Shown here piece by piece: positions 13,848-33,179 of a DNA stretch of 33,491 nucleotides. Source of the DNA: an uncultured Clostridia bacterium (GTDB lineage: Bacteria; Bacillota_I; Bacilli_A; RF39; UBA660); the NCBI GenBank assembly GCA_946619755.1, contig CAMOMI010000007.1:1-33491 (forward strand), in the 5' to 3' direction. The translations under genes were made by a program, and so were the position numbers. A model generated the notes under the pieces. The model was not told the origin of the DNA. It saw only the letters and a program-made list of their open reading frames with translations, and ran no database searches. How positions within the stretch are numbered: position 1 is the stretch's first letter; every line of letters starts with the position of its first letter.

Positions 13848-16097
13848 CTACTCATCACTGAAGAAATCATCAAAGAAATTATCATCATCGTTCTTGTTGT
13901 TATATACTTCGGTATTTTGTTTAGATAATTCGGCAATATTAGCCTTATCTCTTGATTCAGACTTATCATTTATTTCACTAGTTGGTATATTTATAGTAGG
14001 TTCTGATAAGATAACATTATTATTTGGTTGTGCTTGGCTAGATTTTTCTTCGACAATTATTGGAGTTTTAACAGTTTGAGGAATAACTTCTTGTTTCTGT
14101 TCAGTAACCATTCGATTGTTAGCTTCTTCGGCTTCTTTTTCTTTTCTTTCTTCTTCTTCTAATTCAGCAATTTTGGCATCTATTCTTTTTACCAAATCAT
14201 CGACATTAAATCCGCCACTTTCTTCACGAGGCATGCCAGAGCCTGAAAATGGATTAGGCATCCCCATCGCAAATGGATTTGGACTAAACATTGGGTTATT
14301 CATACCACTTGTCATTGGATTTAGCGATTGACCACCATTATTTGAAGTATCACCCATCATGGCAGCCATTTTTTTCTTTTTCATTTCTTTGACATATTCT
14401 CTTATATCAAATAAAGCGACTTCTTTCTTTTCTCTAGTCGGATAAGCGGCTTTAGCGTATTTTTTACCCCAATCCATTTTGAAATTAGGAACTAATTTTG
14501 TTTTAAATGGCATTGTCCTTAGTCTTAATGAAATAGTTTCAAACTGTTGTAATCTTTGTAAATCACTAACAGTTACTAATGGTGTTGAAGCTGTCTTATC
14601 TTTTTCTTTAGACTTCTTTTCACCACATAATTTACTTAATTCTTCAAGTGCTTGTAATTCATTGCTTATTAAGTACATAATATTACAGTTACCTTTAATT
14701 GTTTCAGCATTTTCTTTTCCATAAACTTGGGTTAACTGAGCATAGTTCTGAATAATAAAGGTAAATCTAATTAATCTTGAACGAGCAGCAGTTACCATCG
14801 TAGTAACATCTTTAAGAGGAGGCATATTAGCAAACTCATCTAAAATAAAATTAGTTCTATATGGTAATTTTCCACCAGATTCTTGAGCAACATCAATTAA
14901 TGTTTCATAAACTTGTTTAATAAAGATTGTAGCAAGTGGATGTAATGTTTTCTTTTCATCTTGAACAATCATGAAGACAGCTGTTTTTTGTCTGCCAATT
15001 TCTTTCATGTCGAAGTCACTATAGCTTAACATTTCAGATAAATTATCACGTGATGAGAATAATTTGATTTTTTGTTTAAATGTTGATAGGACTCCTTGTT
15101 TTGTATCTTCAGCTGAATAAACAGTACCTGAAGCGTTTACATAAGCAGGACGTGATGGATCTTTAGAATTAAAATATTCTTTAATATAATTGTTATTTGG
15201 TCCACCAAATTTTTCTTCACCTAAACTTGACATCAAGTTCATGCTATTTAAGTTAATCTGTTCTTCAGTGGCATCTTCAAATAATCCAAGAGCAAGACCA
15301 GTAAAATAGTCAGCTGCTGATTTTTCCCAAAATGGATCAGCATTTCCATTCTTTTCTTCATACAAAATATTTAATGCTAGGTCATCTAAAAGTTCAATAG
15401 CTTTATCAGTATTACCTTCTTTATATAATTGATAAGGCAAAGCCATGGGATTCCAACTATTACCATTTTGTGGACTACGAAAGTTTAAAATAACTATATT
15501 ATAGCCTCTTTCTTTTAACATAGTGGCTGTTTGTTCATATATTTCACCTTTAGGGTCGGTTATGATCATTGATTCACTATGTTTAGCTAAAGAGTAAACC
15601 ATTGGGAAAACGACAATTTGAGTTTTACCACTACCAGTAGAACCAACGATGATGTTATGAGCTTCACCATTATCAACCCATAAGTTTTTACCATCGTTAA
15701 TAACGACTAATCCCGCTGCATCTGCTTTATAGGCTTTTGGGTCTACTTTTACCAATTGTTTCTTTACGTCATTTTTTTTAGCCCAACTTGAATAGCCATC
15801 ATTCTTTTTACTACCGAAACTAAATCCGAAACCAGATTCTCTATCAAAGAAATATGAACTAACAGCTGTAAAAATACCAATTAATGCTAAAAAGAATAAT
15901 ATGAATGTAGCAGCAATATATTTAGGAGCAAACCCTTTAAAAGGATTTAAACCATAAAAATATCCAAAGTTTGCTAAATAACTAGCATTTACAACTACTA
16001 ATGAGCATAATAATAATAAAAATACACAAAATATACCAAAAATTATAACATCTTTAGGTTCTGCGCTAAATTTCATTTTATACACCTCGCTAATCAT
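13848..16097 (-). CDS. VirD4/TraG-type type IV coupling protein
   Basis: Two N-terminal TMs, Walker A IIVGSTGSGKTQIVVFP, DPKGEIYEQTA, Walker B NFILDEFANMPPL, plus long disordered acidic C-terminal tail. Confidence 0.92.
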   Translation of the reverse strand: MISEVYKMKFSAEPKDVIIFGIFCVFLLLLCSLVVVNASYLANFGYFYGLNPFKGFAPKYIAATFILFFLALIGIFTAVSSYFFDRESGFGFSFGSKKNDGYSSWAKKNDVKKQLVKVDPKAYKADAAGLVVINDGKNLWVDNGEAHNIIVGSTGSGKTQIVVFPMVYSLAKHSESMIITDPKGEIYEQTATMLKERGYNIVILNFRSPQNGNSWNPMALPYQLYKEGNTDKAIELLDDLALNILYEEKNGNADPFWEKSAADYFTGLALGLFEDATEEQINLNSMNLMSSLGEEKFGGPNNNYIKEYFNSKDPSRPAYVNASGTVYSAEDTKQGVLSTFKQKIKLFSSRDNLSEMLSYSDFDMKEIGRQKTAVFMIVQDEKKTLHPLATIFIKQVYETLIDVAQESGGKLPYRTNFILDEFANMPPLKDVTTMVTAARSRLIRFTFIIQNYAQLTQVYGKENAETIKGNCNIMYLISNELQALEELSKLCGEKKSKEKDKTASTPLVTVSDLQRLQQFETISLRLRTMPFKTKLVPNFKMDWGKKYAKAAYPTREKKEVALFDIREYVKEMKKKKMAAMMGDTSNNGGQSLNPMTSGMNNPMFSPNPFAMGMPNPFSGSGMPREESGGFNVDDLVKRIDAKIAELEEEERKEKEAEEANNRMVTEQKQEVIPQTVKTPIIVEEKSSQAQPNNNVILSEPTINIPTSEINDKSESRDKANIAELSKQNTEVYNNKNDDDNFFDDFFSDE

Positions 16098-16145
16098 TTA
16101 AATTATATCATACAAGATTAAAACTATCAAGAAAAATGAATGATA

Positions 16146-16868
16146 TTAATCATCCATTTCACTATTCTTTTTCACCATATTTTTAAATATAAAATACCCT
16201 ATTACCATAATAACTAATAAGATACCACAAAAGGCATAATATGTTATGTTGTTATTACGGCGTTCATTATTGTTTGGTTTGATATCTTTTTTATCATCCG
16301 ATTTGGTAGCATTGTCTGGATTATCATTTATAAGAATTAAATTTATTCCTTTATCATGATTACTGTTTGTTAAATGCCATGTATATGTTTTACCATTTAC
16401 ACTATCAGCATTATGAGTTTTTACTCCCCTATCAACAGTTATGTTGATAGAGACACTATCTAAAGTTGGATACTTATCAAAACAAATGGTATTTTGACTG
16501 CTAGAAATAATGGTACTATCTGGATAATTTTGAACAGTAAATGTTTTATAACAGTTCGATACAGCAGTAGAATTTTGATATCCATTTGTTGTAAAATCTG
16601 AGGTAAAGGTTAAAGTATTTCCTTGTAAAGTATATTTGTAGATATTGGAATTATTTTCTAAAGTGCTATCTGGATCTGTTCCTACATTAAAATCGTCTTT
16701 ATCGACAGGTACTTGCCAATTATTGTTAAAGCTACTTATTTCTGTAGCATCACTTCCAATTAATCTTATTTCTTCTTTATATTTATTGCCATCTATAGTA
16801 ACATTATATTGACAAGAACAACCTGTTAAAAACAATAAGACACTAATTATTAATAATCTTTTTTTCAT
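16146..16868 (-). CDS. T4SS-locus lipoprotein with C-terminal TM helix
   Basis: Signal peptide with lipobox LTGC (MKKRLLIISVLLFLTGCSC), extracytoplasmic domain, C-terminal TM YYAFCGILLVIMVIGYFIF. Confidence 0.75.
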   Translation of the reverse strand: MKKRLLIISVLLFLTGCSCQYNVTIDGNKYKEEIRLIGSDATEISSFNNNWQVPVDKDDFNVGTDPDSTLENNSNIYKYTLQGNTLTFTSDFTTNGYQNSTAVSNCYKTFTVQNYPDSTIISSSQNTICFDKYPTLDSVSINITVDRGVKTHNADSVNGKTYTWHLTNSNHDKGINLILINDNPDNATKSDDKKDIKPNNNERRNNNITYYAFCGILLVIMVIGYFIFKNMVKKNSEMDD

Positions 16869-16879
16869 ATTTTCCCCTT

Positions 16880-18691
16880 TTAGTAATTATTATCGACATT
16901 ACTACGATTGTTATAGAAATTATCTAAATGAAGAATTCTAGTTGGTGTATTACCACAATTTCCTGAGTGCATATTCCAAGGTCTTATAATCAATCCATAA
17001 CTACCTGTTGATTCTGCAACATAATATCTTTGACTTGATTCATCAACCGATACAATCATCTGAACGTGACAACCATTTGAATTAATTAAATCCCCAGGTT
17101 GGCCAATACATGATGAGTTTCCTATATCACAGCTATCTCCACTAAAGGCACTATGGAAAGTTGCTGTTGTATGTCTTGAAAAATTATATCCACCATTTCT
17201 GATTGCCCAGCTTGCAAAACCGCTGCAGTCGAATCCAGAGTAATAGAATGTTGATCCATGTGACGAAGTCGATGCACTAGTCTGACTTCCAAAGTTCGGA
17301 TCAACACCAATATGTTGATATTTTCCACCCCAATAATATGGGATACGTATATGACCACCATCATATAGAAAATTAACTAGTGATACGGCGGCGGTAACAA
17401 CGCCAGCACGCGAGCCAGCACCATTTTTTATGACATTATCATGAATTGCAGCATTCAAAGTTTCAATTGATGATCCATTCGCAGCTAAGTATGAAGACAG
17501 ATTTTGATGCAACTCTGTAGCATTGGTAGTATCTTTGATTTCTAGTCCAGCAATGGATGACATAAATGAGCCTGTACTTATGGTAATGTTATTATCTGAT
17601 AAATAATACTCTAAAATTTCGTTATGTTTTAAGCCTTGTTCAGTGGCTAAATAATATGAGCCCCATTGGCTTAAGCCACGCCCATGATTTCCTGCACATG
17701 TTCCCTGTTTCCATGATTCACTGATACCACTCTGGCTATCTACCCAACTACGAGGAATTTTTTGATTTGCTTGTTTAATTGTATAATAATTATCATCGAC
17801 AGCAATACTGCAAAAAGCATCATAACCAACACTAAATAATTCATTATTTGAAAGGAGAACTTGTCCTTTTGTTTCTTCAACTGCTTGATATATTAAATCT
17901 GCATAAGGATAAACACTTCTATCGGTTATATCCCTAAAAACTTGTTTACGATCACTTGATTCAATTGTACAATTATCATCATGTGTTAAAAAGTAAGTTC
18001 TAGCAGCTAAGGCAAATTCTTTATATACTTCTAAATTATTGAACATTCCGACTTCCGCACTGACAACGCCAGCAACATAGTCTTCAAGGGCATATGTACC
18101 AGTACCAGTGACCTCATATCCCTTGCTCTTATCTGTCATGATAACTGTAACTTCTTCACAGCGCATAGCATAGTATCCACTTGTTGCTAAGCCACCAGAC
18201 GAGCTTTCTTCGTCATCGACAAAAATGACTATAAACATAAGAAGAATTACCGTTATTGGCAGTAATATTAAAATTAGTTTTAAGACCAATGGATTAGTTA
18301 ACTTTATTTGGGGTAGTCCTGATTTGCTAGTAGTAGCAGTAGTAGAAGAAATATTCGATTTTTGATTTGTATTGCTTTTACTTTGAGTTGTTGTTGAATT
18401 ATTAGCAGCGCCACTTGGTGATAAAGCATTATTAGCTGCATCTAACGCTCCTGAATTATCTAATTTTTGGGCAGCATTTCTAAATCTACGATTTTTATTA
18501 GCTCTTTTAGCGCCACGCGTTAATACTCGATCTCCTAGTTTAGTTTTACTTAAACCATCTACAACTTTACCACCAAGTTTGCCTCCATATGCGGTTGCTA
18601 CACCTTGAGCGGCAGTTTTTAATGTTTTTTTACTAGATTCTAATTCTGCAGCTTGTTGTTCCTGTTGCTCTATTAATTCTTCTTCATCCAC
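16880..18691 (-). CDS. Membrane-anchored bifunctional wall hydrolase: SpoIID/LytB domain + NlpC/P60 domain (VirB1-like role)
   Basis: TM LILILLPITVILLMFIVIF; SpoIID motifs VVSAEVGMFNNLEVYKEFALAARTYFL and HGRGLSQWGSYYLA; NlpC/P60 motifs YYWGGKY, GFDCSGFASWA, QPGDLINSNGCHVQMIV. Confidence 0.88.
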   Translation of the reverse strand: MDEEELIEQQEQQAAELESSKKTLKTAAQGVATAYGGKLGGKVVDGLSKTKLGDRVLTRGAKRANKNRRFRNAAQKLDNSGALDAANNALSPSGAANNSTTTQSKSNTNQKSNISSTTATTSKSGLPQIKLTNPLVLKLILILLPITVILLMFIVIFVDDEESSSGGLATSGYYAMRCEEVTVIMTDKSKGYEVTGTGTYALEDYVAGVVSAEVGMFNNLEVYKEFALAARTYFLTHDDNCTIESSDRKQVFRDITDRSVYPYADLIYQAVEETKGQVLLSNNELFSVGYDAFCSIAVDDNYYTIKQANQKIPRSWVDSQSGISESWKQGTCAGNHGRGLSQWGSYYLATEQGLKHNEILEYYLSDNNITISTGSFMSSIAGLEIKDTTNATELHQNLSSYLAANGSSIETLNAAIHDNVIKNGAGSRAGVVTAAVSLVNFLYDGGHIRIPYYWGGKYQHIGVDPNFGSQTSASTSSHGSTFYYSGFDCSGFASWAIRNGGYNFSRHTTATFHSAFSGDSCDIGNSSCIGQPGDLINSNGCHVQMIVSVDESSQRYYVAESTGSYGLIIRPWNMHSGNCGNTPTRILHLDNFYNNRSNVDNNY

Positions 18692-18722
18692 TCAAATCAC
18701 CGCCTTTACTACTAGCTATTAA

Positions 18723-20510
18723 TTATAATCCACCACCTGAACCAAATGAATCTAATTCTTCTTGAGTTAATGTTACATCTATTTGCATTCTTCGATTACC
18801 GCATACAAATAGTGCTTCTCCTTGATTATATCTCTTTATATTTTCTTTTTCATTATCATTTAAATCGACAAGCATGGCTAAATCTTCAGCCGCTTGTTTT
18901 CTTAATCCCATAATTAAGTAATATGAGGCATTATCAAAAATGGCTTTACCATGCATTATCATATTATTAGCAACGAAGTCTGATGGTTGTTGAGTAATTA
19001 TAATAGTTCCTGTATTATATTTTCTTGCTCTTCTTTGTACTTGGGCTAAAAATTCAGCTCCAAGCTCATTTTGTGAACCTAATAATACATGGGCTTCGTC
19101 AACTGATAAAACTGTATTTTTATTTGGATTTAAACATAAACTCCAAGCATATTTTAATACATTGAATAATAAAGCATTTCTAATATTGACATCTGAATTC
19201 ATTACTTCTTTAATATTAAATACTAAATATTCATTTGTAGTATCAATAGTTGTATGGCCATTGAAATAATATTGTAGTTCTTTTACTAATGGTCTTAATT
19301 TCAATTCAAGTCTTTCCAAAACATCTCTTTCGTGAGTTTTTTCGGTCATAGATGTTAATTTACTTGTAACAGTAATATAAACATCTTGCATAATTGGAAA
19401 ATCTTTTGATGTAAAGTTAGAAAAATTAGTATTATATGCAATTCCAAATCTAGCATATGTTTCAAGAGCCATTTCGCCAAATAAAGTTAAAACATCTTCT
19501 TCAATGTTAGGTGAGTAATACTTCATAAAAGCTTTCAATGTTTGAAGAGTTGATGTTAATATTGTATAACCTAATCCTTGATTTTGAATAGTTTCATCAT
19601 CACTATCCATAACAATTTCTAGTGGGTTAATCATACCATATTGACCACCCTTACCAAGATCAACAACTTCACCGCCATAGGCTTTAGTCATTTCAGTTAG
19701 TTCACCTTCAGGGTCAACACAAACAATCTGATAACCATTTCTAATATGACTACGTAAAATTAGTTTAGCAGCTGTTGATTTACCACTACCAGATGAACCT
19801 AAAATAATCATATTGGCATTATTACGGTTATTTTCTTTTTTTATTTGATATAAGAATTGATTGAATAAAACTACTCCACCAGAAAACTCAACACCTAATA
19901 ATGTTGATAAGCCATCATCTTTTAAACTATCAAAAATGAATGGGTACATTGAGGCAATTGTTGGAGATGGCATTATAGAACCTACTCTATCTTCAATTAT
20001 TTGTTTACCAAAGATAGGAAGCATAGATTTTAAAACTCTTTCTTGTTCAAATCTTAATTGAATACCTGTCATTTCCATACCATCAAGATATGTTTTTAAG
20101 TTAGTTCTTTTATTTTCTAATTCTTCTTTTGTATCAGCAGTAATCATTATATGTAATTGAAAATCGAAACTCCTTGATTGGGATTGCGTATATTGTTGAA
20201 TAAATGTTTCTAGAGAATCAATATCTTGTCTAATTCTCTCTAGAATTGTATTATCCCTTTCATTTTGGTATCGTTGTCTAAGTTCGGCTAACTCATTATT
20301 TAACATTTTGTGTAAAATTGTTGATGAAACTGGTATATGTTTTATAACAACTTTAACACCTGGTATATTTGTTAAGTCTGATAAATAGCCATCATCTATA
20401 ATTCTTGGATATGAAATAACTGTTAAAATAGTAGCATATTTACCACTTATAACGAAATCAGCTGCGTTAAATTGTAATCCCTTAGGGGCAAGTTGTGATT
20501 TAATGTTCAT
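18723..20510 (-). CDS. VirB4-family T4SS ATPase, C-terminal portion
   Basis: Walker A MIILGSSGSGKSTAAKLIL, Walker B TVLSVDEAHVLLG, RRARKYNTGTIIITQQPSDF. Confidence 0.92.
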   Translation of the reverse strand: MNIKSQLAPKGLQFNAADFVISGKYATILTVISYPRIIDDGYLSDLTNIPGVKVVIKHIPVSSTILHKMLNNELAELRQRYQNERDNTILERIRQDIDSLETFIQQYTQSQSRSFDFQLHIMITADTKEELENKRTNLKTYLDGMEMTGIQLRFEQERVLKSMLPIFGKQIIEDRVGSIMPSPTIASMYPFIFDSLKDDGLSTLLGVEFSGGVVLFNQFLYQIKKENNRNNANMIILGSSGSGKSTAAKLILRSHIRNGYQIVCVDPEGELTEMTKAYGGEVVDLGKGGQYGMINPLEIVMDSDDETIQNQGLGYTILTSTLQTLKAFMKYYSPNIEEDVLTLFGEMALETYARFGIAYNTNFSNFTSKDFPIMQDVYITVTSKLTSMTEKTHERDVLERLELKLRPLVKELQYYFNGHTTIDTTNEYLVFNIKEVMNSDVNIRNALLFNVLKYAWSLCLNPNKNTVLSVDEAHVLLGSQNELGAEFLAQVQRRARKYNTGTIIITQQPSDFVANNMIMHGKAIFDNASYYLIMGLRKQAAEDLAMLVDLNDNEKENIKRYNQGEALFVCGNRRMQIDVTLTQEELDSFGSGGGL

Positions 20511-21057
20511 TTGGCAACACCACCTTACTATCTGTTGTCATTCCCCCATTTAAGAAACTATCTAAGACAACTCTTAAATCTGTATTAGATGTCTGGACTG
20601 AATCTAGGCCTGCATTTGATAAACCCATCATCAGTGTTCGCAACCTTTTTTGAATTATATCTGGATTTTTTTCTTTAAATAATATATAAAACTCTGTATC
20701 TGTTACATTATCACGCATAAAATCATTAGCTTTTTGAATATCTTGGCTAATTATTTTTTTAATACGTGGATCACCTTCTTGGTTATATTGAATTTGTAAA
20801 GTAGCTAAATAATTGGAAATATCAACAGGTCTATCAGCAGATATTAACCAAAACTCAAAATCAATTGAATCATAAAAAACTCTTAGTTGAGAAATAATAT
20901 TATTTCTAGAATTTGAATCTAAGATAAAGATATTTCTAGGTCTTATTTTAACTCCTGTTACTTTCATTTTGTTATCTAATTCAATCATCCCATTAGCAAT
21001 ATTTTTAACAGGTAACCAGTCTTCAGTATATTTACTATTTATCTTCTTTGAACTCAT
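20500..21057 (-). CDS. VirB4 N-terminal-domain protein (separate ORF)
   Basis: WLPVKNIANGMIELDNKMKVTGVKIRPRNIFILDSNSRNNIISQLRVFYDSIDFEFWLISADRPVDISNYLATLQ resembles the N-terminal domain of Gram-positive VirB4/TraE ATPases; overlaps both neighbours. Start MSSKK chosen. Confidence 0.75.
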   Translation of the reverse strand: MSSKKINSKYTEDWLPVKNIANGMIELDNKMKVTGVKIRPRNIFILDSNSRNNIISQLRVFYDSIDFEFWLISADRPVDISNYLATLQIQYNQEGDPRIKKIISQDIQKANDFMRDNVTDTEFYILFKEKNPDIIQKRLRTLMMGLSNAGLDSVQTSNTDLRVVLDSFLNGGMTTDSKVVLPNEH

Positions 21058-21355
21058 TTTGCATACACCAACCTCTCCAAATATAATTTTTTCTTCCATT
21101 ATAATAATTTAGAATACTTTGAATAGCACACAAAAAATTGTGATAATTTGGTACTGGTAATACCAAAAAGACACATATCAACATTGGTAATAAAGAGAGT
21201 ATCATCAACCATGTTGCAGAATTTGAGAATATAGCTAGTAGAGCAACTGTAACAATTGTTCCACTAGCTAATATTACTAAATCAGGCATAGGTCTAAACA
21301 TTCCTAATACTAATGTTGATCTTTTTGTGTTTGCAGGTACTAAACTACCATTCAT
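21035..21355 (-). CDS. PrgI/VirB3-like membrane protein
   Basis: Small two-TM protein (NTKRSTLVLGMFRPMPDLVILASGTIVTVALLAIF...LPVPNYHNFLCAIQSILNYYNGRKNYIWRGW) directly upstream of the VirB4 genes. Confidence 0.75.
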   Translation of the reverse strand: MNGSLVPANTKRSTLVLGMFRPMPDLVILASGTIVTVALLAIFSNSATWLMILSLLPMLICVFLVLPVPNYHNFLCAIQSILNYYNGRKNYIWRGWCMQNEFKEDK

Positions 21356-21384
21356 AAAGTATCACACTCCTTTTTTCTTTAAAA

Positions 21385-24300
21385 CTAGCTATTACCACCA
21401 TTAAAGTCGTTAGCAGCCTTTTGAGCGGCAGTAGCATTACTTGTCTCACTATATCTCTTTTCTTCTTTAAGCTGTTTAAGAATACGTTCATATTCATTTC
21501 CACTATTAATAGCAGCCGTTTTAATTTCATCAAGCGTTTCAAAGTCTTCAATTTTGCCACTTAAGAATGCAGACAATATAGTAGGTTTATCTTTTAATTT
21601 TTCTCTCATTTTTTCTACCGCTTCAGGATTTTGTCTTAAAACTTTTAAACTTTCAAGAGCATCTTGTACTTTTTCAACAGCTACTTTATCATATTTTTTG
21701 CTCTTGATATGATCAATGCTTTCACCAGCGGCCATGTCTTTAAGAATTGATGAATATTGATATCTTGCAGCATTCTTTTGGACTTGTGTTACGGCGTAAT
21801 CAGCATCAGCAGCTTCTTTTGCCTTAGTTTGTGCATTTGCTCTTAATGCATCAGCTTGAGCTTTTGCAGTATCATATGTTGCTTTGTCTGCATCACTTAA
21901 ACTATCACGATCTTTTGTCAAAATAGTGTTAGTGCCTTCAAAATCATCGACTCTCTTAGCGGCAGCTTCAGCTTCAGCTTTGGCTCTTTCAGCACGTCCA
22001 ACATACTTTCTGTGTAAGTCTCCAATTGTTTCATTTGCTCCAATATCAGCGTATTGTGTACTTCCATCAGCATTAGTTAAACCAGTTTTAATTTTTGCAG
22101 TTGGTGACACTACTTGAGTAAGTTCATTTATTTTTTCTTTCAATCTATCTTCAGCACTATCAGCAGTTGATTTAACATCTTTAGTAAGTGATGATTGTGC
22201 TTCGAGTTTCTTAATTTGTGGCTCTAAAGCCTTATTGTGTAATACGGTTCTTTGATATTGCGTTTCAATACCAGTTTTCTTTTCTATTTGTGCAGCTGTT
22301 CGATCAATAACACCTTGAATGCCACCAGCTCCACCGGCATCATAATATTTATTTAATTCAACAACTTGTTTAACATCTTTTTTAACGGCATCATCAACTT
22401 TTTTAGTGATATCTTCAAGTTTAGTTGCACCGGCTCCAGCCACAATTGTTTTAACAGTAGCACCTATGCCACCTATTGCTGCACCCGCAATTGATTTATA
22501 TTGTTTATTACTATCTTCAGCTACTTGTTCATTTGCTTGTTGAATCTGTGGTTCAAGATCTTTGATAAGTTGATTACGCTTATTTTCTGCTTTAACATTT
22601 TCTTCATTAAGGTAGTTAGCACGAGCAGTTTCATATTGAGTTTGAGCAGCTGTGTAATTTTCTTGTGCTGCTGTTATTCTTGCTTGATCGCCACTTGCAA
22701 TTGCGCTTTCAAGATTTTGTCTTGCTGTTTCTGCTGCTTGTCTATTTGCTTCAACAACTTTAGCCTCTTCTTTATTACTTTTGCGACTATTGGCATCACT
22801 ACTTCCATATTTCTGCATATTGGCAGTTTCTTTATCGAATTCAATTTGTGCCTCAGCTTGTCGTTTTGTTGCTTCAGCAATTGCTGTTGGATCTCCGCTT
22901 GCTTTTTTTTCATCTAAGTCTCTATTAGCGGCCGCTAAATTTCTTCCAGCATTTTGGAATCTAGTGAAATCAGCTTGATATATTTCATTTGCGCCTAAGC
23001 CACTAGTATTAATTTTTTCTTTTATTGCGTTTCTTTCTTTAGTTAAACGTTCAACTTCAGCTTGATCGCCTCTTTGTCTAGCATCATGTAATCTTCTGTC
23101 TATGTCTACTAAATCATTTAATCCGCCTCTTTGTTTTTGATATCTTGATAAAGCCTCATCTCTTGCTCTTGTTAAATTATCAATTTCTGATTGAGGTGCA
23201 TTTCTTCTTTTGGCATCATTTAATCTTCGATTAGCAAGTCTTAAATCATCTTCTGCTCTATTTAAATCATCAGTTCTGTTACTTAAATCTTGTAAGTTTC
23301 TAGCTTTACGTCTGTTTTCTCTTCTCTGTCGCCATTGCTCTTGGCCCTCTTTAGTAAGTATTGATTTTTGACCATTTGCTCTATTTCTGTTGACATTACT
23401 TACAATACGTCTTGCCATATTTGTTCCAAGTTTAGTAGCTCCTAAGGCAGCACCAAGAGTTCTGGCTGTTAGAGCGCCAACACGTTCGCCAGCTTTGAAG
23501 CCAAAGCCTATGCCAGCAGCACCACTTGATGGGAATAGTTCTCCCAATAGTTTTGGAGCACGACTTGCAAAAGTTAATAGTCCCATAATAAGAATAATAT
23601 ATGCAAATGTTTCCAAAGTCTTTGAAATTTGCAAGCCTTCAAATAACGTTCCACTATCATAAGCCGTTCCAATAATTTCAATTAATAATAATATAAAGTA
23701 AATAATAGCAATTCTAATAAATAAATCTACATAAGTTGTTAGGCATTGTTTTGTCCATTTTTGAAATATGCCATCTTTTTTTGGTAAGATGTATCCCATA
23801 ATGGCAATTGGAGCCATTACTTGTAAAAATAGTAATTGGGCATATCTTATACCAACATCAACACTATATAATGCGAGAACATATAAAATGAACGCACCAA
23901 CGCCAATGGCAAAGAAGCCATTAAAACTAATAGCTGGTGTATAACCATCAAAACGAATCAAAGATGATTCTACAGTTTCATTTATACCTTCTAATAAGTT
24001 TATTTTACCATTATTTCTTAGATTGCTTAGATTCTCTTCCACTTGCGCTGCAGCATCGGCACAATTACCGCTACCTGAAGCACATGCTTCTTCATCTATC
24101 CCATAGAACAAGCCTAAAATATTAGCAGAAAAAACTCCGCCAACTTGTTCGACGTTTGTATTAGTTTTACCTAAAATTATTTTTGAAATAACTTGATTTT
24201 CAATAATTTTACTTTGTAATGAATAGGCTAAAGAAAAAATTTTAGGTACAAATGCAATTAAAATAATTACAATAACTATTCTTTGTAAAATATTGCCAAC

Positions 24301-24573
24301 GCCCTTTTCTTTATCTTCAATGTTATCTGGTGTAATAACATATTTTACAAATTCAAACGTTATATAAAAAGTCATAACGATTGTTAGCACCATTGTTACT
24401 CTTTGATATATTGGTTCAACAGCATTGGTTGATAAAAAATTTACTTTAGCTAATGTTATAAATAATTGATAAACGCATGATATTAGCCAATATATTAAAT
24501 TACAAAGAAGGGCACCTAGTCCCCTTAAGCCTTGTCTCCAAAGTGGTAATCCGACGGCTACCAAAAAATTCAT
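21385..24573 (-). CDS. VirB6/TrbL-like polytopic membrane protein with long coiled-coil C-terminal extension
   Basis: Multiple TMs in the first about 340 aa (including QLLFLQVMAPIAIMGYILPKKDGIFQKWTKQCLTTYVDLFIRIAIIYFILLLI) followed by about 700 aa of charged/Ala-rich helical sequence. Confidence 0.85.
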   Translation of the reverse strand: MNFLVAVGLPLWRQGLRGLGALLCNLIYWLISCVYQLFITLAKVNFLSTNAVEPIYQRVTMVLTIVMTFYITFEFVKYVITPDNIEDKEKGVGNILQRIVIVIILIAFVPKIFSLAYSLQSKIIENQVISKIILGKTNTNVEQVGGVFSANILGLFYGIDEEACASGSGNCADAAAQVEENLSNLRNNGKINLLEGINETVESSLIRFDGYTPAISFNGFFAIGVGAFILYVLALYSVDVGIRYAQLLFLQVMAPIAIMGYILPKKDGIFQKWTKQCLTTYVDLFIRIAIIYFILLLIEIIGTAYDSGTLFEGLQISKTLETFAYIILIMGLLTFASRAPKLLGELFPSSGAAGIGFGFKAGERVGALTARTLGAALGATKLGTNMARRIVSNVNRNRANGQKSILTKEGQEQWRQRRENRRKARNLQDLSNRTDDLNRAEDDLRLANRRLNDAKRRNAPQSEIDNLTRARDEALSRYQKQRGGLNDLVDIDRRLHDARQRGDQAEVERLTKERNAIKEKINTSGLGANEIYQADFTRFQNAGRNLAAANRDLDEKKASGDPTAIAEATKRQAEAQIEFDKETANMQKYGSSDANSRKSNKEEAKVVEANRQAAETARQNLESAIASGDQARITAAQENYTAAQTQYETARANYLNEENVKAENKRNQLIKDLEPQIQQANEQVAEDSNKQYKSIAGAAIGGIGATVKTIVAGAGATKLEDITKKVDDAVKKDVKQVVELNKYYDAGGAGGIQGVIDRTAAQIEKKTGIETQYQRTVLHNKALEPQIKKLEAQSSLTKDVKSTADSAEDRLKEKINELTQVVSPTAKIKTGLTNADGSTQYADIGANETIGDLHRKYVGRAERAKAEAEAAAKRVDDFEGTNTILTKDRDSLSDADKATYDTAKAQADALRANAQTKAKEAADADYAVTQVQKNAARYQYSSILKDMAAGESIDHIKSKKYDKVAVEKVQDALESLKVLRQNPEAVEKMREKLKDKPTILSAFLSGKIEDFETLDEIKTAAINSGNEYERILKQLKEEKRYSETSNATAAQKAANDFNGGNS

Positions 24574-24589
24574 AATATCACTTCCCTAT

Positions 24590-25393
24590 TTATATGCTGC
24601 AACTACTATATAAGCCTTCCCATACAATATCTGCTAGATACATTATTACATTTATTAATACCGGAATTAAAAATATAGCTACGCCAATAATAACTCTCTT
24701 TATAAAAGTCATTTGGGCTTTTTTCATATCATCTTCTTTTTGTGCAATAACTGCTTTAAAGAAATCTAATGTGCCAAGAATAATAATTAGTATTGGAATG
24801 ATAATTTTTGGGTACATTAATACTTCATTTATAATATAAGCAATACTACTTGGATCATCTTTTGAGCCAAATATTGCTCCGCAATCAACTGTAGATTCAT
24901 CGCCTTCAAGTGCTATAGCCATTTTTTCATTTTTTATATAGCTTACATTTTTAGTTATTCCAGCTTCAAATTCTTCTTTTGTAATGCTTTTTTTGTCACT
25001 TGTCCATGCGGACATTTTATTAACTTGTTTAGAAGCACTGGCAAAAGAATTTGCATCTTGAGAATTATCAAATCCCCATATACCATCAGATGCCCACCAC
25101 AAAGCTCTTTCTTTTCTTCTATATACAATATAGTTAGGGCAAGCATTAGAAATTTTGTTTACTGTTAAACCAGTGTAATTATCTGATTTACTGGAATTCT
25201 TATTAATTAAAGGTTCATTATCGGCTAAAATATTTGTTTTAGTTCCCCTTTGTCTAATCGTAAATTGATTATTATTTGAATTATATTCAACAGAAACTTC
25301 TGTAGTTTGGTAATAACATACTTCTGCATATATATTTTTCATTCCAAACAACATTATTAATAACATAAATAATATGTAATTTTTATGTTTCAT
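24590..25393 (-). CDS. Secreted-domain protein with C-terminal VirB2-like TM hairpin
   Basis: Signal peptide (MKHKNYILFMLLIMLFGMKNIYAEVC), about 150-aa ectodomain, C-terminal hairpin IIIPILIIILGTLDFFKAVIAQKEDDMKKAQMTFIKRVIIGVAIFLIPVLINVIMYLADIV. Confidence 0.8.
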   Translation of the reverse strand: MKHKNYILFMLLIMLFGMKNIYAEVCYYQTTEVSVEYNSNNNQFTIRQRGTKTNILADNEPLINKNSSKSDNYTGLTVNKISNACPNYIVYRRKERALWWASDGIWGFDNSQDANSFASASKQVNKMSAWTSDKKSITKEEFEAGITKNVSYIKNEKMAIALEGDESTVDCGAIFGSKDDPSSIAYIINEVLMYPKIIIPILIIILGTLDFFKAVIAQKEDDMKKAQMTFIKRVIIGVAIFLIPVLINVIMYLADIVWEGLYSSCSI

Positions 25394-25440
25394 AAAGCAC
25401 CTCTTTTTTGGCATGAGTAAAATACCTCGTATACATTATA

Positions 25441-25473
25441 ACATAAAAAAATAGAAAAAGAAATAACTTTTTC
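25441..25473 (-). terminator. Terminator/attenuator directly after the VirB2-like gene
   Basis: GAAAAAG-AAATAA-CTTTTTC (25454-25473) followed on the minus strand by TATTTTTTTA. Confidence 0.7.
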
Positions 25474-25501
25474 CATTATTTTTTTGGCATTTTTATGTCA
25501 A

Positions 25502-25828
25502 TTATCTTTTTTCTAAACTATAGCATGCTAAGGCATTTTGAGATTCAGAATTTGCTTGCTCATTGCCTGCATTTGTAAGCACTCCGAAAGCAACACTTAC
25601 AATCCATGGAACTAAGAAAACAACAATGGCATAAATAACTCTTTGTATAGCCATCTTTTGAGCACTTTTAATATCGTCTTCCTTGCCTGCCATAACTGCT
25701 TTACCTAAATCTATTACTAATAATACGATAAGAATAATGATAATAGCAGCTTGAATTAGAGGGATAACTCCAAATTTAATAAGTCTAATGACTGGTCTTA
25801 ATGTTTCACAAGCATCTAATAATAACAT
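25502..25828 (-). CDS. VirB2/TrbC-like small two-TM protein (candidate pilin/channel subunit)
   Basis: IPLIQAAIIIILIVLLVIDLGKAVMAGKEDDIKSAQKMAIQRVIYAIVVFLVPWIVSVAFGVL; RBS GGAGGAG. Confidence 0.8.
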   Translation of the reverse strand: MLLLDACETLRPVIRLIKFGVIPLIQAAIIIILIVLLVIDLGKAVMAGKEDDIKSAQKMAIQRVIYAIVVFLVPWIVSVAFGVLTNAGNEQANSESQNALACYSLEKR

Positions 25829-30515: not shown

Positions 30516-30551
30516 AAAAAAGTAGAATTATTTTCTTTTAGATAATTCTAC
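30516..30551 (-). terminator. Rho-independent terminator of the LysM/SpoIID-like cluster
   Basis: Perfect 10-bp stem GTAGAATTAT / ATAATTCTAC, minus-strand T-run; overlaps the stop codon at 30528. Confidence 0.8.
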
Positions 30552-31874
30552 TACTTTACGCCATAACAATGGACCAACAATGCCATTTATTTCAAAACCA
30601 TAGTCATCTTGAATTTTTTTTACTGATTTTTCAGTTAGTTCATCAAAAATACCATTTACTCTAACTCCGGGAATTGATTTATCAAAGCGACATATGGTAA
30701 GTAAGAACTGTTGAAATCTTTTGACATCATTACCAGTCATACCTCTGGTTAAAAAATAGTCAGGATATAATTCATAAACATATTCTTGATAATCAGCAGG
30801 AAATGATTTTAAAATATTACGATATGCATTTTTTAAAACAGTCCAATCACTATATGTAAATATACCAGTAACTGGAAGATTATATTTTTCTTGAAAGGCT
30901 TTAACCATTGTAATGGTATTATTATTATAAATAGAATTGGTAGGTAGTCTCGGTATATCTTTATCTAAGAAAGCAATGGCATCTAAAAAATAATGAATAT
31001 ATTCAACTTCAATACCTGTATCGCCATATTTTAATTCATCGGTATAAAGAAAAGTGGCTTCTTCTTCAGTAATACCTTCTGAATATAAGTCAGATAATTT
31101 TTTTACACTTGTATAGATATATTTTATTCGATACCAAGTTGCTTTATCTACTTCGCCAGTAATAGGCAGATTGAAAATTTCTTGGAATTTTTTTACTGCT
31201 TCTTCAGTTGATTTTTCATAGATACCTAGGGTATCAGTAATATCAGGAATAGCCGGATAATTCTGCCTAATTCTTCTTAAATCTCTTTGAATGGCTAAAA
31301 CAGGATTACCTGCATAACCAATACCAATTGTGTATCCTGGAAAACCTTCGGTTGTATCACCAACAGGGGCATCATATTTAATACCAATATCTTGGCCATA
31401 ATAGTTTTGTAATATTTGAATAGGATTTTTACCTTGATTAGCTAAGGTAACTGTTCCCCATTGGCTAAGTCCGTCACAAGTTTTAACACGGCCATCACAG
31501 TAAGTTGTAAAATATGGTTGAATTTGGCCAGATTTTACAACATAATTATTAAATATTTCGCTTACGATGTCATCAATGTTTTCATAAGTTGAGCGATTTA
31601 AAGTGTATGTTTGATCATATGTTGGTGATGATGTAATGTCAAAATTGTATCCTTTAGAGCGATACCATTCATTATAAATTCGATTCATAGCGAATGATAT
31701 TATGGCATAGATATTTGCAACAAGAGCATTTCGTGGCCATGTTGGATATAGTTCGGACGATGCAACATTAGCAATATAATCGGTAAAAGGAACAGTTATA
31801 TTACGAGCAGCTTCATCTGGAGCGCCTAGGTGAATTGTTATATTATTGGGAACTATGGGATATCTAACAGCCAC
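30528..31874 (-). CDS. SpoIID-like domain protein with three peptidoglycan-binding (PG_binding_1) repeats
   Basis: ITVPFTDYIANVASSELYPTWPRNALVANIYAIISFAMNRI and DGLSQWGTVTLA (SpoIID-like); VKKFQEIFNLPITGEVDKATW, VKAFQEKYNLPVTGIFTYSDW, VKKIQDDYGFEINGIVGPLLW. No signal peptide. Confidence 0.85.
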   Translation of the reverse strand: MAVRYPIVPNNITIHLGAPDEAARNITVPFTDYIANVASSELYPTWPRNALVANIYAIISFAMNRIYNEWYRSKGYNFDITSSPTYDQTYTLNRSTYENIDDIVSEIFNNYVVKSGQIQPYFTTYCDGRVKTCDGLSQWGTVTLANQGKNPIQILQNYYGQDIGIKYDAPVGDTTEGFPGYTIGIGYAGNPVLAIQRDLRRIRQNYPAIPDITDTLGIYEKSTEEAVKKFQEIFNLPITGEVDKATWYRIKYIYTSVKKLSDLYSEGITEEEATFLYTDELKYGDTGIEVEYIHYFLDAIAFLDKDIPRLPTNSIYNNNTITMVKAFQEKYNLPVTGIFTYSDWTVLKNAYRNILKSFPADYQEYVYELYPDYFLTRGMTGNDVKRFQQFLLTICRFDKSIPGVRVNGIFDELTEKSVKKIQDDYGFEINGIVGPLLWRKVVELSKRK

Positions 31875-32297: not shown

Positions 32298-33179
32298 TTA
32301 GATAATTAATTTTTGACCAATACTTAGATTATTGGATGTAAGATTATTTTTTCTTTTAATAACATCTATAGTCGTATTGTATTTTCTAGCTATTCCATAG
32401 AGATTATCTCCTTTTTTTACAATATAAGTAATGGTAGATGGTGTCGTTGGAGTTGTCTTGGTAATAGTGCTTTGACTTGGTATTTTTAGTTGCTGACCAA
32501 TTGATAAATTTTGGCTAGTTAAATTATTTAAGTTCATAATAGCTGTAACGCTAGTATTATAACGAGCTGCAATGTTATAAAGATTATCCCCTTTTTTAAC
32601 CGTATATGTGGTTGCTATGGGAGTTGTATCAACTGGTGGTGTATAATCTGGGCCTATACATTCTTCGATGGTTACAGAACCATTAGTACTAGGAACTCTA
32701 ATTTTTAATATCTGACCAATATTTAAAGAATTACTGTTAAGTGAATTATCTTTAATAATCATATCAACAGATACATTGTTAGCTCTTGCTATCGAATACA
32801 GGGTATCGCCTTTTTTTACAATGTAGTTAATATAATTAGGGAGAACCATTTCATCTTCTTTAGTATAAGTTTCGGGTATTCTTAAGGTTTGACCAATTTG
32901 TAATATGGTACTCTTTAGGTAATTTAGATCAATAATTTTTTGAGGAGTAGTATTATATTTAGTAGCAATAGAATATAGAGTATCTCCTTTTTTAATGGTA
33001 TACATAAACATATTATTGGGATTAGTTCCACCATTTATTGGAATAGATAAAACTTTACCTACTGGTAAACTCGAGCCTTTGATATTATTTAATTCAGCTA
33101 ATTCAGTTACTGATACACCAAATTGATTACTTATTCCATAAAGAGTATCACCAGGTTTTACAGTATATGTTTGATTCAT
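32298..33179 (-). CDS. LysM-repeat protein (five LysM domains, no signal peptide)
   Basis: Five copies of YxVKKGDTLYxIAxxxNTxxxxIxxLNxLxSxxLxIGQxLxIP. Confidence 0.92.
   Translation of the reverse strand: MNQTYTVKPGDTLYGISNQFGVSVTELAELNNIKGSSLPVGKVLSIPINGGTNPNNMFMYTIKKGDTLYSIATKYNTTPQKIIDLNYLKSTILQIGQTLRIPETYTKEDEMVLPNYINYIVKKGDTLYSIARANNVSVDMIIKDNSLNSNSLNIGQILKIRVPSTNGSVTIEECIGPDYTPPVDTTPIATTYTVKKGDNLYNIAARYNTSVTAIMNLNNLTSQNLSIGQQLKIPSQSTITKTTPTTPSTITYIVKKGDNLYGIARKYNTTIDVIKRKNNLTSNNLSIGQKLII

Follow-up and report, generated by a model that had tools for sequence, protein, structure and literature searches.

The window analysed here, a stretch of 33,491 nucleotides from an uncultured Clostridia bacterium (contig CAMOMI010000007.1), encodes within a T4SS operon a predicted bifunctional wall hydrolase in which a SpoIID domain takes the place of the lysozyme-type domain known from related enzymes. 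The protein is very likely a dedicated peptidoglycan hydrolase which does the work of VirB1 for a chromosomally fixed T4SS, and one version of a cassette which is exchangeable throughout a family of gut bacteria.

Positions 16880..18691 of the minus strand are filled exactly by an intact open reading frame of 603 amino acids with a GTG start and Pfam matches, preceded by a good ribosome-binding site (AAAGGCGGTGA). As the initial annotation had proposed, the product has one transmembrane anchor only, at residues 140-158 (18218..18274, minus strand; hydropathy 3.36), where the AlphaFold model forms a helix from residue 134 to 157, and residues 1-139 are predicted to be cytoplasmic. The model has a mean pLDDT of 72, which rises to about 90 in large parts of the two catalytic domains. 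The gene, its domains and its residue motifs are not a product of chance. A search with the full protein against plasmid and phage records yielded no match at 1e-5, and a search of the genome contig collection yielded one relative only.

The first catalytic domain, about residues 178-370 (17582..18160, minus strand), is recognised by the SpoIID family PF08486 (E 6.5e-12), its 46.4 bits exceeding the cut-off of 23. It is modelled with a pLDDT of about 90, SpoIID structures are the best PDB matches of the hydrolase model in Foldseek (5i1t, E 1.3e-6), and a profile match to 4rwr reaches an E value of 5.9e-28. The predicted catalytic residue is glutamate 213, the codon of which lies at 18053..18055 on the minus strand and which aligns with the glutamate of YLCGVLAGE in the C. 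difficile SpoIID (5txu/5i1t). Across 15 relatives C178, Y205, E213, R231, Q250, H336, G339, S341, and Q342 are invariant, and the motif HGRGLSQWG is found in the domain. The SpoIID domain with its conserved glutamate and GRGLSQWG motif, which had been read from the sequence alone, was thus recovered by Pfam above cut-off, by the alignment of E213, and by fold, which are the profile and structure comparisons suggested for this part of the protein. The Pfam search found no lysozyme or SLT domain in the hydrolase, only SpoIID and a weak NLPC_P60 match. With the sporulation SpoIID (TIGR02870; 5i1t, 5txu, 4rwr) the domain shares the fold, the glutamate motif YVxGVVxxE, and the motif HGxGMSQxG, but it is shorter, fused to a peptidase, and encoded in a T4SS operon. 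A weak fold match of the SpoIID part was also obtained with the germination lytic transglycosylase SleC (9h68, E 1.9e-3), which unlike the window protein is a spore enzyme with a peptidoglycan-binding part.

The second catalytic domain, about residues 406-598 (16898..17476, minus strand), is papain-like and of the NlpC/P60-CHAP type. It is modelled confidently by AlphaFold and matches the NlpC/P60 structure 8er5 in a profile comparison (E 2e-6), and CHAP-type relatives and models match it likewise. Candidates for the catalytic triad are C489 (DCSGF), H542 (GCHVQM), and, less certainly, E560. The cysteine and the histidine named by the initial annotation are therefore present and its assignment to NlpC/P60 is right at the level of the superfamily only: Pfam NLPC_P60 (PF00877) gave 20.1 bits, under the cut-off of 23. 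As several sister proteins (L087, L173, L035) pass this cut-off, the domain is called NlpC/P60-CHAP-like here.

The VirB1-like hydrolases of Gram-positive T4SS include CwlT of Tn916, PrgK of pCF10, and TraG of pIP501. Like them the window protein is membrane-anchored, is bifunctional, as they usually are, and is encoded beside VirB4, VirB6, and VirD4; their peptidase partner is NlpC/P60 or CHAP, and its own is NlpC/P60-CHAP-like. It differs from them in that its glycan cutter is SpoIID instead of lysozyme or SLT, in that it belongs to a chromosomally fixed T4SS in which no relaxase was found, and in that its cassette varies among close relatives. The open-access literature searched yielded no previous record of SpoIID together with a T4SS. 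In the proposed mechanism the single helix would anchor the protein so that its two catalytic domains lie outside the membrane, SpoIID would cut glycan strands by lytic transglycosylation using E213, and the papain-like domain would cut stem peptides or remove them from the glycan by means of C489 and H542, so that both cuts together would open the wall for the T4SS channel. Sporulation SpoIID prefers denuded glycan, and a peptide-cutting partner in cis therefore makes sense. From sequence and model we infer the enzymatic activity, the cleavage site, the role in channel assembly or transport, and the owner of the wall that is cut. The hydrolase would thus work like a VirB1 enzyme from outside the SLT fold family, and the drilling of a secretion channel, as the initial annotation put it, is to be taken as its presumed task.

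The association with a T4SS was borne out by the neighbouring genes, as the hydrolase gene lies between those of VirB4 and VirD4 in the window and likewise in sister loci. In the order of transcription, and all on the same strand, the genes are obg, two candidate pilins, a TrbL/VirB6-like protein, a small protein with two transmembrane segments, VirB4 in two genes, the hydrolase, a predicted lipoprotein, VirD4, fnt, a rhodanese, and rmuC, followed by polA, mutM, and scpA. The first candidate pilin (25502..25828, minus strand) is a small membrane protein with two transmembrane segments which cross-matches T4pilin genes of sister loci. The second (24590..25414, minus strand), a candidate pilin or ICE membrane protein, gave weak matches to PF18895 T4SS_pilin (E 0.039, 14.5 bits against 26.6) and Mbov_0396 (E 0.006). 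The polytopic VirB6/TrbL-like channel protein (21385..24573, minus strand) has six transmembrane segments and reaches 30 bits with Pfam TrbL_4, over a cut-off of 27. For the small protein (21035..21355, minus strand), which is PrgI/VirB3-sized, a family search gave no match. The N-terminal part of the VirB4 ATPase (20500..21099, minus strand) covers positions 93-277 of NF045975 and overlaps the separate gene for the C-terminal motor half (18723..20510, minus strand), which carries a TraG P-loop and scores 335.6 bits with NF045975 (model cut-off 590) and 49.3 with AAA_10, over 27.5. Downstream of the hydrolase, where it is the usual neighbour by synteny, lies the predicted lipoprotein (16146..16868, minus strand), which has a C-terminal transmembrane segment and a lipobox model score just under the cut-off. 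The VirD4 coupling ATPase of the CD1115 family (13848..16097, minus strand) passes the NF045973 equivalog with 306.5 bits over 250 and matches T4SS-DNA_transf with 193.7 bits. The core set of VirB4 ATPase, VirD4 coupling protein, and VirB6-like channel is thus present.

This system occurs family-wide, as judged from draft metagenome-assembled genomes and counts obtained with home-made HMMs. A split VirB4 was found in 123 of 145 sampled family genomes, a number which includes a few whose only match is a fragment or an ICE-type VirB4 that is not split; it occurs in single copy as a rule and is mostly 63-85% identical. The VirB4s which a class-wide sample gave outside the family were all distant (29-35%). 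The gene order is conserved in regions of twenty kb from about 120 genomes. Among the neighbours of the C-terminal VirB4 gene in 124 loci, the N-terminal VirB4 gene is adjacent in 121, the small protein with two transmembrane segments occurs in 114, VirB6 in 104, and VirD4 lies downstream in 95, contig ends cutting many of the remainder. Family-wide presence together with conserved gene order indicates that the T4SS is chromosomally fixed. The two VirB4 genes overlap by 4 nucleotides in 64 loci, by 1 in 36, by 11 in seven, and by 8 in five, so that overlaps in two frames across the family point to a true split and not to a frameshift site. Two genomes show a different arrangement. In G030 the T4SS is found at two places, the VirB4 core on one contig and the hydrolase, lipoprotein, and VirD4 on another (L029:7148-12434, L147), and in G036 a second pair of SpoIID hydrolase and lipoprotein lies about 30 kb from the T4SS with no adjoining VirB4 or VirD4 (L034:9294-11305).

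No relaxase gene was recognised within the T4SS locus (13848-25828 of the window), and the relaxase family PF03432 had no match in the genome of the window, a draft of 34 contigs which is 75.8% complete; a PF03432 gene is present in 31 of 141 family genomes. That the locus is a conjugative or integrative element of the usual kind, with SpoIID in its hydrolase by accident, would agree with the fact that VirB4 and VirD4 are nearest to the CD1115/Mbov_0397 ICE families. This explanation is very improbable in view of the locus with no recognised relaxase gene, the genome with no PF03432 match, the housekeeping genes obg, rmuC, polA, mutM, and scpA which flank the operon in the window, and the single copy in the same order throughout the family. 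The same genomes contain eight further T4SS, of ICE type, in which the hydrolase next to VirB4 is M23-type and SpoIID is absent, which indicates that SpoIID goes with the fixed T4SS. A description of this family-wide, fixed T4SS with no relaxase in its locus was not found in the open-access literature searched.

Within this fixed system the hydrolase slot itself is variable. Its domains were assigned by Pfam for 20 slot proteins and by our own HMMs, run on 146 slot ORFs, for the rest. SpoIID was counted with a stricter model and with a second one seeded on the unnamed part of L109, which converged on SpoIID; an iterated model (SpoIIDx) was dropped because it had strayed into M23 regions. SpoIID is present in 54 of 95 complete loci (49 by the stricter model) and is the commonest glycan-cutting module detected at the T4SS of this family. 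Lysozyme or glucosaminidase is found in 15 of the 95, in 13 of them without SpoIID and in two with it. The claim that SpoIID stands in place of a lysozyme-type domain is supported by these sister loci, in which the reverse choice has been made. In 28 complete loci neither SpoIID nor lysozyme or glucosaminidase was detected by our HMMs; a glycan-cutting domain may be dispensable there or too diverged. The partners of SpoIID in the slot are C39-like, which is the commonest, NlpC/P60-CHAP, M23, and amidase_3, and some slot versions carry Phage_lysozyme or a phage tail lysozyme with M23. Only two of the 59 SpoIID domains in the slot lack the predicted catalytic glutamate, which the other 57 retain. 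In L132, one of the two loci with both types, the SpoIID glutamate is replaced by tyrosine and a phage-type lysozyme is present. Mutual exclusion of SpoIID and lysozyme gave a Fisher p of 0.0003 from counts which ignore relatedness, and with phylogenetically independent pairs the two were opposite 5.9 versus 0.3 times on average, a borderline result (median p 0.0625).

These exchanges occur beside a motor which hardly changes. The VirB4 of the window is 92% identical to that of G005, whereas the hydrolases, SpoIID-NlpC in the one and SpoIID-C39 in the other, are 23% identical; an M23-lysozyme locus (L119) and a SpoIID locus (L123) have VirB4s which are 90% identical, and different hydrolases are found with VirB4s of 88-92% identity. 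On the VirB4 tree, a quick tree with many weak branches, SpoIID has to be gained or lost at least 15 times if starred branches are counted, and 26 times on the best tree. Repeated swaps at near-identical VirB4 imply that SpoIID in place of lysozyme is a recurrent state and not a one-off event. Within the genus the identity is 85-92% for the C-terminal VirB4 half and 75-82% for VirD4, as compared with 51-66% and 39-58% for the pilins, 36-45% for VirB6, and 22-47% for the lipoprotein. The outward-facing parts of the T4SS thus vary most, and the frequent exchange hints at a pressure from outside, for which target-cell walls are a possible source.

It is possible, if on balance doubtful, that a neighbour's wall is the main target of the hydrolase, in which case the T4SS would be a contact-dependent delivery device with a cassette matched to its targets. 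The hydrolase has been replaced repeatedly and the remaining envelope components have diverged strongly next to conserved ATPases, which would fit this, as would a chromosomally fixed T4SS in a genome with no PF03432 match. On the other hand the protein is anchored in the membrane of its own cell, drilling of the own wall is the known role of VirB1-like enzymes, and envelope divergence could stem from phage or immune pressure. A fuller version, in which a whole family of small-genome, probably spore-forming gut Bacilli uses a vertically inherited, relaxase-less T4SS for delivery to neighbours, its mostly SpoIID-based hydrolase being a rapidly exchanged cassette fitted to changing target walls, is rather speculative and should be regarded as improbable.

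Another question concerns the origin of the SpoIID domain, which the initial annotation took for a recruited sporulation-type transglycosylase. The domain is of SpoIID type, but it is not the sporulation enzyme itself: the sporulation equivalog TIGR02870 scores 53.0 bits on the hydrolase, below the cut-off of 234.75, and 303.2 bits on the true SpoIID of the genome, a separate gene elsewhere. A carefully built tree unites the slot SpoIIDs in a single long-branched cluster (support 86/99) and 28 sporulation SpoIIDs in another group (88/98); a single clade of slot SpoIID domains was not rejected (p 0.377). Equivalog scores and separate tree groups argue for a diverged SpoIID/LytB relative and against a recent takeover of the sporulation enzyme. 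The slot cluster also takes in a long-branched, SleC-like second SpoIID gene of the window (30528-31874), which combines SpoIID with three PG_binding_1 repeats, lies two genes from a protein with five LysM domains (32298-33179), and is probably related to spore cortex or coat.

The same data bear on the idea that T4SS and hydrolase are part of sporulation, for example as a channel between mother cell and forespore. SpoIID is an engulfment enzyme, the family is almost uniformly Spo0A-positive (130 of 141 genomes), and RF39-type Bacilli are predicted sporulators which are also predicted to keep a wall (PMC10868615); the family itself probably consists of RF39-like uncultured Bacilli. A role in sporulation is nevertheless most improbable, because, where Pfam finds no SpoIID whatsoever (13 sampled genomes), 8 genomes keep VirB4 all the same, some of them with truncated or absent Spo0A (G011, G067, G072, G153, G165), and because the true SpoIID is a separate gene with which the slot domains do not group. 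Several genomes with a slot SpoIID (e.g., G010, G019, G069, G085, G096) have no strong match to the usual sporulation SpoIID of 300 amino acids; most of them have a full Spo0A, and the sporulation enzyme may have diverged in them or be absent.

Frequent occurrence of the same fusion away from T4SS genes had been named as evidence against the initial reading, and it was encountered to a small extent. Matches with both domains in 392 genomes of the phylum were confined to this family and to T4SS loci, whereas in IMG/VR a few contigs of temperate phages carry enzymes with SpoIID, NlpC/P60, and SH3 (L249-L253), so that the fusion is not exclusive to T4SS. These endolysins resemble the window protein in having SpoIID and NlpC/P60 in one chain, but they have an SH3 wall-binding domain and an integrase context. 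Capture of such an endolysin-type cassette, the fusion coming from phages, would also fit the phage-type lysozymes in other slot versions. It is an unlikely origin all the same, since the phage enzymes are only remotely related (34% over the SpoIID part) and have no transmembrane anchor in the ORF, and no donor sequence was found in the phage records searched. On the phage contig L248 (7953-9991) the genes for SpoIID and for NlpC/P60-SH3, which are one fused gene in sister phages, are separated by an HNH endonuclease gene, as if split by a homing element. Plasmid records gave no match with a SpoIID-C39 relative. A seemingly plasmid-borne SpoIID of Monoglobus was set aside, as it has chromosomal-type neighbours and no T4SS, and so were "SpoIID-like" domains described for polyvalent proteins, for which the family cited is PF07486, which we take to be the SleB-type Hydrolase_2 and not SpoIID.

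With the hydrolase seen as the VirB1 analogue of a fixed T4SS, a SpoIID-type transglycosylase, as its predicted activity suggests, is able to supply the glycan-cutting part of a T4SS hydrolase. The family provides a natural interchangeable set, in which SpoIID, lysozyme, and glucosaminidase occur with NlpC/P60, C39-like, M23, CHAP, and amidase domains on a near-constant motor, and with which one can ask whether the choice of hydrolase is set by the own wall, by that of the target, or by pressure from phages. The analysis also brings a family-wide and apparently non-conjugative T4SS to notice.
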